Shown here: piece by piece, positions 14,087 to 48,534 of the stretch
Numbering within the stretch: position 1 is the first letter of the stretch
Layout of the letters: every line of letters begins with the position of its first letter
Source of the DNA: Angustibacter luteus
GTDB taxonomy: Bacteria; Actinomycetota; Actinomycetes; Actinomycetales; Angustibacteraceae
Direction: 5' to 3'
Assembly (NCBI RefSeq): GCF_039541115.1
Contig: NZ_BAABFP010000002.1
Coordinates: 806,001 to 870,000 of the forward strand
Length of the DNA stretch: 64,000 nt
Translations under genes and position numbers: made by a program
Notes under the pieces: generated by a model
Database searches by the model: none
What the model was told of the DNA's origin: nothing
What the model saw: only the letters and a program-made list of their open reading frames with translations

Positions 14087-14727
14087 GGGATGGTGACCCT
14101 TCTGTCGTGGACGGTCCAGCCGTCGCGGGCCATCCGGCCCACGACGTCGACGAGCATGGCGCGCTCGACGGTCTTGATGCGCTCGTGCAGGGACTCGACG
14201 TCGTCACCGTCGGCGACCTCGACCGCGCGCTGGGCGATGATCGCGCCGGTGTCGACCCCGTCGTCCACCAGGAACAGCGTCGCACCGGTCACCTTCACGC
14301 CGTACGCGAGGGCGTCGGCCGCGCCGTGCATGCCGGGGAACGAGGGCAGCAGCGCCGGGTGGGTGTTGACGTAGCGGCCGGCGAAGCGGGCCAGGAACGC
14401 CGGACCCGCCAGCTTCATGAACCCGGCGGAGACCACCAGGTCCGGCTCGCACGCCGCGACGACGTCGGTGACGTCGCGGTCCCAGGCCGCGCGGTCGGGC
14501 GCATCGGCCACCCGCCGGACGAACGTCGGGACGCCGGCCCGCTCGGCCCGGGCCAGCCCCTCGATGCCGGGCCGGTCGGCCCCGACCGCGACGACCTGCG
14601 CGCCGTACGACGGGTCCTGGCAGGCATCGAGCAGCGCCTGCAGGTTCGTCCCGGCGCCCGAGACCAGCACCACCAGGCGCGCAGGTCTGCGCGGGCGGTC
14701 GCGCGGGCGGCCCGCGTGCGTCGTCAC
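14083..14727 (-). CDS. purN: Phosphoribosylglycinamide formyltransferase
   Basis: 214 aa, GTG start. It transfers a formyl group from 10-formyl-THF to GAR in purine synthesis. [15 protein letters not shown] binds the phosphate, [15 protein letters not shown] holds the catalytic Asn and His, and [10 protein letters not shown] holds the catalytic Asp. It is coupled to purH through a GTGA overlap and lies 25 bases after the DUF6350 gene, giving a DUF6350-purN-purH unit. Confidence 0.96.
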
Positions 14728-24870: not shown

Positions 24871-24951
24871 GGCGTGAGGCTAGAACGGGTTCCGGACGTT
24901 CTGACTCCGGTAGCGGCGCTCCCACCGGAATCCAGGCCGGAATCGCAAGCG

Positions 24952-24994
24952 GTCAGGAATCGAGAAGCATCCCCGCGGGTGCCGCGCCTAGCGT
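24952..24994 (+). promoter_or_regulatory. Promoter with a 17-base box, copy 1 (VOC gene)
   Basis: GTCAGGAATCGAGAAGC (24952-24968) lies exactly 37 bases start-to-start from TAGCGT (24989-24994), which is seven bases before the ATG at 25002. The same 17 bases at the same distance from a -10 occur before the DUF1801 gene (47981-48023). Confidence 0.75.
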
Positions 24995-25001
24995 GAACGG
25001 C

Positions 25002-25649
25002 ATGGATACCACCGAGTCACGAACTGAAGGACACGCCCTGACGTCGATCACGTCCGTCGTCCTCGACGTCGCCGATCCCGTTGCCGCCCAGGCGTTCTAC
25101 GCCGCACTCGGCGTCGACCACCTGCTGAGCCTGCGCGAGTCGCAGGCGCCGACGAGCGGCTTCCGCGGGTTCACGCTGTCGGTCGTGGTGGCGCAGCCGG
25201 CGGACGTCGATGCGATCGTCGGCGCCGCGCTGACCGCGGGCGCGACGTCGCTGAAGCCGGCGGCGAAGAGCTTCTGGGGGTACGGCGGCGTCGTCCAGGC
25301 ACCGGACGGGACGATCTGGAAGGTCGCGTCGTCGTCCAAGAAGAACACCGGACCGGCCAACCGGGAGATCGACCAGATCGTGCTCCTCCTCGGGGTCAGC
25401 GACGTCCGTGCGACCAAGCGCTTCTACGTCGAGCGCGGCCTGACGGTGGGCAAGAGCTTCGGCGCCAAGTACGTCGAGTTCGACACCCCGTCGTCGACGG
25501 TGAAGCTCGCGCTCTACGGGCGCAGGGCCCTCGCGAAGGACGCCGGCGTGCCCGAGGACGGGACCGGGTCGCACCGGATCGTCGTCGTCGGTGGCACCGA
25601 GCCCTTCACCGACCCGGACGGGTTCGCCTGGGAGGCTGCGTCCGCCTGA
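25002..25649 (+). CDS. VOC-superfamily (glyoxalase-like) protein
   Basis: 215 aa from the ATG at 25002 (a GTG three codons upstream falls inside the promoter spacing). Two tandem VOC modules are seen: SITSVVLDVADPVAAQAFYA ... VQAPDGTIWKVASS, and IDQIVLLLGVSDVRATKRFY ... TDPDGFAWEAA. Metal-binding His/Glu positions are not complete, so it may be a binding or resistance protein, not an enzyme. Expression is predicted from a leaderless promoter that shares an upstream box with the distant DUF1801 gene. Confidence 0.82.
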   Translation: MDTTESRTEGHALTSITSVVLDVADPVAAQAFYAALGVDHLLSLRESQAPTSGFRGFTLSVVVAQPADVDAIVGAALTAGATSLKPAAKSFWGYGGVVQAPDGTIWKVASSSKKNTGPANREIDQIVLLLGVSDVRATKRFYVERGLTVGKSFGAKYVEFDTPSSTVKLALYGRRALAKDAGVPEDGTGSHRIVVVGGTEPFTDPDGFAWEAASA

Positions 25650-47963: not shown

Positions 47964-47980
47964 CGGCAGACCGCGATCCG

Positions 47981-48023
47981 GTCAGGAATCGAGAAGCGGC
48001 CCGGTTTCCCCGGGGCCTAGCCT
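47981..48023 (+). promoter_or_regulatory. Promoter with a 17-base box, copy 2 (DUF1801 gene)
   Basis: GTCAGGAATCGAGAAGC (47981-47997) lies 37 bases start-to-start from TAGCCT (48018-48023), identical in sequence and spacing to copy 1 at 24952. Here a leader of about 50 bases with an AAGGGGAG site precedes the ATG at 48082. Confidence 0.75.
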
Positions 48024-48081: not shown

Positions 48082-48534
48082 ATGCCCACGAAGAAGGCCA
48101 CGACCGAGTCCGACGGCGGCTTCAGCGCCGCCGAGCGCGCCGCGATGAAGGAGCGCGCCGCCGAGCTGCGCGCCGAGGGCAAGAAGGGCGCCAAGAAGGC
48201 CGACGGCCTGCAGGCGGTGCTGGACGCCATCGCCAAGATGGGGCCGGACGACCGTGCGCTCGCCGAGCGGGTGCACGTGGCCGTGACCGCGAACGCCCCG
48301 GAGCTGTCTCCGAAGACCTGGTACGGCATGCCCGCCTACGCGAACGCGGACGACAAGGTCGTGCTGTTCTTCCAGGACTCCGGCAAGTTCAAGTACCGGT
48401 ACTCGACGCTCGGCTTCCAGGACGCGGCGAACCTGGACGACGGCGACCTGTGGCCGACGTCGTACGCGCTGCAGCAGTGGACCCCCAAGGTCGAGAAGCA
48501 GGTCATCGCGCTGGTGAAGGCCGCCCTGTCCTGA
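48082..48534 (+). CDS. DUF1801-domain protein
   Basis: 150 aa. A Lys/Glu/Ala-rich helical N terminus (1-60) leads to the DUF1801 domain (about 65-150: LSPKTWYGMPAYANADDKVV, FKYRYSTLGFQDAANLDDG, LWPTSYALQQWTPKVEKQV). Relatives include the frataxin-like iron chaperone YdhG/Fra, but iron ligands are not evident. It shares its upstream promoter box with the VOC gene 23 kb away, suggesting one regulon. Confidence 0.85.
   Translation: MPTKKATTESDGGFSAAERAAMKERAAELRAEGKKGAKKADGLQAVLDAIAKMGPDDRALAERVHVAVTANAPELSPKTWYGMPAYANADDKVVLFFQDSGKFKYRYSTLGFQDAANLDDGDLWPTSYALQQWTPKVEKQVIALVKAALS

Follow-up and report, generated by a model that had tools for sequence, protein, structure and literature searches.

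In the window, a 64,000-nucleotide stretch of the Angustibacter luteus genome, the 17-base sequence GTCAGGAATCGAGAAGC occurs exactly, on the + strand, at 24952-24968 and again at 47981-47997, ahead of two genes of different families. What does this box do, and which protein would read it? The features concerned are as follows.

24948..24968, + strand: putative activator box 1, with the core GTCAGGAATCGAGAAGC at 24952-24968 and a conserved 5' extension (A.CG) from 24948, as given by the motif of unselected sites
24989..24994, + strand: -10 element TAGCGT, 20 nt after box 1
25002..25649, + strand: two-domain VOC/glyoxalase-fold gene, 215 aa; 17 of 30 homologues picked by protein only are likewise preceded by the box
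47977..47997, + strand: putative activator box 2, with the core GTCAGGAATCGAGAAGC at 47981-47997
48018..48023, + strand: -10 element TAGCCT, 20 nt after box 2
48082..48534, + strand: DUF1801-like gene, 150 aa, whose homologues' promoters were compared

The initial annotation had described identical 17-mers at one distance from a -10 element, and this is exact: TAGCGT (24989) and TAGCCT (48018) both lie 37 nt from the box, start to start. Chance identity had been called unlikely, in agreement with the 0.15 box matches expected in a shuffled window even when three mismatches are allowed. The sole other match in the window, at 14619 (three mismatches), lacks a -10 element at the right distance. 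The ATG of the VOC gene at 25002 is 7 nt past the -10 element, and its mRNA is probably leaderless. The label of the gene at 48082 reflects a match to DUF1801 under the Pfam cut-off (E 0.0024, 18.7 bits against 27.2). Around box 1 we also observed an imperfect second copy, GGAATCGCAAGC, at 24939-24950, which lies 17 bp ahead of the part of the box that it matches and is absent from the other sites. Divergent from the VOC gene, and sharing its intergenic region, is a gene of the mycothiol-S-transferase family (PF04978; 24313-24870, - strand), which no box faces.

The exact 17-mer has three copies in the 4.16-Mb genome, two in the window and one on a contig that we call C5, and the reversed-pattern control has none. 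TAGC(G/C)T follows exactly 20 nt after the box in 3/3 of these copies. When the whole genome was searched for the 16-mer, N20 and TAGNNT with up to three mismatches, the same three sites were recovered, all perfect, and the reversed control was again empty. A relaxed bipartite pattern added two one-mismatch matches in the whole genome, no excess over its reversed control, and the regulon in A. luteus therefore probably comprises just three promoters.

The third box is embedded in the 3'-terminal codons of a gene for a 149-aa AraC/XylS-type protein (P0005), and its TAGCCT overlies the final codons of the same gene. Directly after the regulator gene comes a probably leaderless VOC/glyoxalase gene, with its ATG 7 nt past TAGCCT. 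This regulator-linked VOC gene is followed on C5 by a gene for a 785-aa UvrA-like protein; in other genomes, boxes are also found immediately upstream of genes of this type. The regulator scored 81.8 bits against Pfam HTH_18 (cut-off 33.6) and 51.6 against HTH_AraC (cut-off 26.6), as expected for an AraC/XylS protein with a double helix-turn-helix, and consists of an AraC-type DNA-binding domain with no ligand domain. Its nearest solved relatives in the PDB include RamA, SoxS, Rob and MarA. As judged by the NCBIfam cut-offs it is not an orthologue of these proteins (RamA 47.8 of 180 bits, SoxS 33.3 of 174, MarA 20.3 of 202), and it is predicted to act like them. An AlphaFold model made with five sequences was of low confidence (mean pLDDT 55). 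A cysteine in the C-terminal tail is common, not universal, among the regulators; that it could serve as a sensor is speculation.

None of 30 loci had a box upstream of the regulator's own start. Simple autoregulation is thus not indicated, since the promoter of the regulator is free of the box. In these loci (L159-L188) the gene mostly starts with GTG, and in many of them a conserved -10-like CACGAT or TACGAT is found 6-9 nt upstream. This arrangement suggests a leaderless regulator mRNA from a separate, box-free promoter.

Beyond A. luteus, the exact 17-mer was present in 113 of 395 sampled genomes of the class, with a reversed control of 0. When public genomes were scanned for the box plus -10 element, at least 118 loci were returned, nearly all actinobacterial; hosts among the matches listed were Streptomyces, Nocardia, Micromonospora, Mycolicibacterium, Microbacterium and Kribbella, plus two Variovorax. 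The latter (Betaproteobacteria; L062 and L117) carry the regulator, box and VOC gene as a unit with an identical box, the single one in each genome, and probably acquired it by horizontal transfer. The initial annotation had proposed as a check that the full genome and related genomes be searched for the 17-mer with TANNNT 37 bases on. This gave the three genomic copies and, among wider sites found by the 17-mer alone, TANNNT in 33/33, at a gap of 19 nt (7 sites) or 20 nt (26 sites). At 29 of these 33 sites an ATG lies 5-9 nt past TANNNT, and the corresponding mRNAs are probably leaderless.

A close homologue of the regulator (E<=1e-50) was found in 113/113 genomes with the exact box, and the exact box in 0/212 genomes without a homologue; some of this co-occurrence is to be expected, as a box is often part of the regulator gene itself. 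Conversely, 29 of 30 loci fetched by similarity of the regulator protein alone carried the box (up to one mismatch) 19-20 nt before a -10 element. The tests of codon use and of DUF1801 promoters are free of this circularity.

About half of all recovered copies of the box lie inside the coding end of the regulator, as might be seen if it were a mobile or dispersed repeat, or a trace of coding conservation at the C-terminal VRNREA of the regulator, without regulatory meaning. In the regulator frame the box reads VRNREA, and it is spelled with AGG in 28/30, AAT in 29/30, CGA in 28/30 and GAA in 30/30 genes. Elsewhere in the regulator genes the same codons make up 1.9% (AGG), 11.5% (AAT), 2.1% (CGA) and 12.4% (GAA) of the codons for their residue. 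The box is thus kept in rare codons, demonstrating that it is the DNA, not the protein, that is conserved, and coding conservation was ruled out by codon use. A repeat would also have to account for window copies that lie outside genes, for flanks that are unconserved while the -10 element is kept at a fixed distance, and for the empty reversed-pattern control. We consider a repeat or coding origin to be vanishingly improbable. Chance and a scattered repeat without link to promoters, the latter named by the initial annotation as what would refute it, were ruled out by the controls and the spacing.

For a comparison independent of the box, DUF1801-like genes were found by protein in 120 genomes, their upstream DNA was fetched, and regulator homologues were called at E<=1e-40. 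The box was present in 64/102 promoters from genomes with a regulator homologue and in 2/20 from genomes without one (Fisher p = 1.2e-5; the genomes are related, which makes this and all other p-values too optimistic). On the reverse strand it was found in 1/122. Many genomes that bear the regulator have no box at DUF1801 or VOC-B, and regulon membership therefore varies.

Could another regulator, an AraC-type paralogue or a member of another family, bind the box, with the VOC-adjacent AraC gene being no more than a target or neighbour? Both exceptions in the DUF1801 comparison, metagenome-assembled genomes with completeness values of 91% and 95%, carry a box upstream of DUF1801 and no detected regulator, and AraC-type genes are so numerous that a paralogue could share the site. 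Set against this are the presence of this AraC-type regulator alongside the box in every one of the 113 exact-box genomes, the box-free promoter of the AraC gene itself and a site shape that fits a MarA-type monomer. The box sequence also drifts as the regulator drifts (Spearman -0.56, 64 sites), a correlation that is not separable from shared phylogeny. Taken together, a different regulator appears unlikely.

The 66 unselected DUF1801 sites gave the consensus A-Y-C-G-R-T-C-A-G-G-A-W-T-C-G-A-G-A-A-G-C, an asymmetric, bipartite motif of ~20 bp that reaches 4-5 bp further 5' (A-Y-C-G-R-TCAGG...) than the 17-mer. CAG and AGAAGC are near-invariant and about one helical turn apart, and the middle is tolerant. 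Consistent with the initial annotation, which had found the sequence between box and -10 element unconserved, no other position is conserved there in the unselected sites. With the -10 element set at -12 to -7, the 17-mer spans ~-49 to -33 with its centre at ~-41 and occupies the place of the -35 element. The box had been placed just upstream of the -35 position, where an activator would bind; the reading as an activator site adjoining -35 is supported, and the placement is corrected in that the 3' end overlaps -35. An asymmetric site in forward orientation, overlapping -35 at fixed spacing to the -10 element, has class II geometry.

A constant distance to a conserved -10-like hexamer, together with target genes that are few and scattered, would also be expected if an alternative (ECF) sigma factor recognised the box as an elongated -35 element. 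However, ECF promoters have a -35 to -10 spacer shorter than 19-20 nt, and with the whole box read as -35 the gap is too long. TAGCNT fits the vegetative TANNNT, the motif is bipartite and ~20 bp long, and it is the AraC gene, and no sigma gene, that is tied to the site. We therefore disfavour an ECF -35 element on spacing and site length, and regard it as highly unlikely.

The motif, its fixed spacing, its link to promoters, the selection at the DNA level and the co-occurrence with the regulator were all computed directly. They lead us to propose that the box is very probably the operator of the small stand-alone AraC/XylS-type activator of ~149 aa encoded at C5, a MarA/SoxS/RamA-like protein that would switch on a few detoxification-type genes. 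The initial annotation had postulated an activator site near -35 that defines a small unrecognised regulon, and this is supported: the site is promoter-linked wherever examined, its targets are restricted, and it tracks one AraC-type regulator. From the same comparative evidence we infer that the C5 regulator binds the box, that it controls transcription of the neighbouring genes and that it activates them (class II) rather than represses them.

Bound as a monomer, the regulator would contact the asymmetric site in two consecutive major grooves, one helix-turn-helix motif in each, with CG.TCAG as the 5' half of the contacts and GAGAAGC as the 3' half. Positioned over ~-49 to -33, it would draw vegetative-type RNA polymerase holoenzyme to promoters with a TAGCNT -10 element and no usable -35, which would otherwise be weak. 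Three promoters would be turned on by such class II activation: that of the C5 VOC gene, and then the UvrA-like ATPase gene; that of the VOC gene at 25002; and that of the DUF1801-like gene at 48082. The activity of MarA and SoxS is set by the amount of protein. The same probably holds for this regulator, since it has no ligand domain.

The initial annotation had also called for the downstream genes to be listed, and the box recurs before a restricted set of families. Among recovered sites with a called gene these were the regulator-linked VOC (89), the two-domain VOC (28, including 25002) and DUF1801-like proteins (13, including 48082); rarer were the UvrA-like ATPase (7), a third VOC type (4), an F420H2-dependent quinone reductase (3), a 71-aa membrane protein (2) and an AraC paralogue (1). 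The box directly before this AraC-type paralogue gene (L086) is a hint that regulators may act in a cascade in some Streptomyces. Several VOC proteins of solved structure match the VOC protein next to the regulator, with 5umw and 6cky as the best matches, and some of them are TnmS-type enediyne-binding resistance proteins. The regulator-linked VOC protein resembles the enediyne-binding VOC and glyoxalase/bleomycin-resistance proteins in the PDB with a homology that is superfamily-wide, and drug binding here is hypothetical. The types of target suggest a role in detoxification or in drug binding and resistance.

Searches of the open-access literature with words and with the motif string (both strands) found no paper on the motif or regulon. 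Small AraC-type activators with class II sites are a known kind of system; this regulator-operator pair and its regulon appear to be new. Given a near-invariant operator and a named regulator, Streptomyces, Micromonospora, Nocardia, Mycolicibacterium, Microbacterium and numerous further actinobacteria are predicted to share a regulon that seems not to have been described, and uncharacterised DUF1801-like, VOC and UvrA-like proteins gain a common context. An intrinsic resistance or detoxification response of drug-producing and environmental bacteria may thereby be exposed. The conservation of the site across actinobacteria, and a regulator encoded outside the window, were beyond the reach of the window sequence alone. 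More tentatively, and with somewhat less than an even chance of being right, the system may be an actinobacterial counterpart of mar/sox/ram: a class-wide small AraC-type activator with a near-invariant operator would govern an inducible defence, directed at drugs or reactive electrophiles, in which the VOC and DUF1801 proteins, a UvrA-like ATPase and an F420H2-dependent quinone reductase are coordinated, and the operator in the regulator's own coding end would let the regulator-target cassette move as a unit, even into Variovorax.

As in the MarA/SoxS/Rob/RamA regulons, an AraC-type protein comprising a DNA-binding domain only is found here as the predicted activator, and the targets are of a stress- or drug-resistance type. 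MarA is a monomer on DNA and places its two helix-turn-helix motifs into neighbouring major grooves, and RamA sits at ~-41 on the class II micF promoter (PMC8811837); class II marboxes are in forward orientation and overlap -35 (PMC12052159). The actinobacterial site likewise resembles the enterobacterial marbox in being asymmetric, ~20 bp long, forward and over -35 with its centre at ~-41. In contrast, its sequence is unrelated (GTCAGGAATCGAGAAGC versus gcannwwntgnnaaa) and much less degenerate. The system further differs from those of MarA, SoxS, Rob and RamA in having very few targets per genome and a copy of the operator inside the 3' coding end of the regulator itself, and from mar/sox in its actinobacterial host, where no MarR- or SoxR-like partner was seen.
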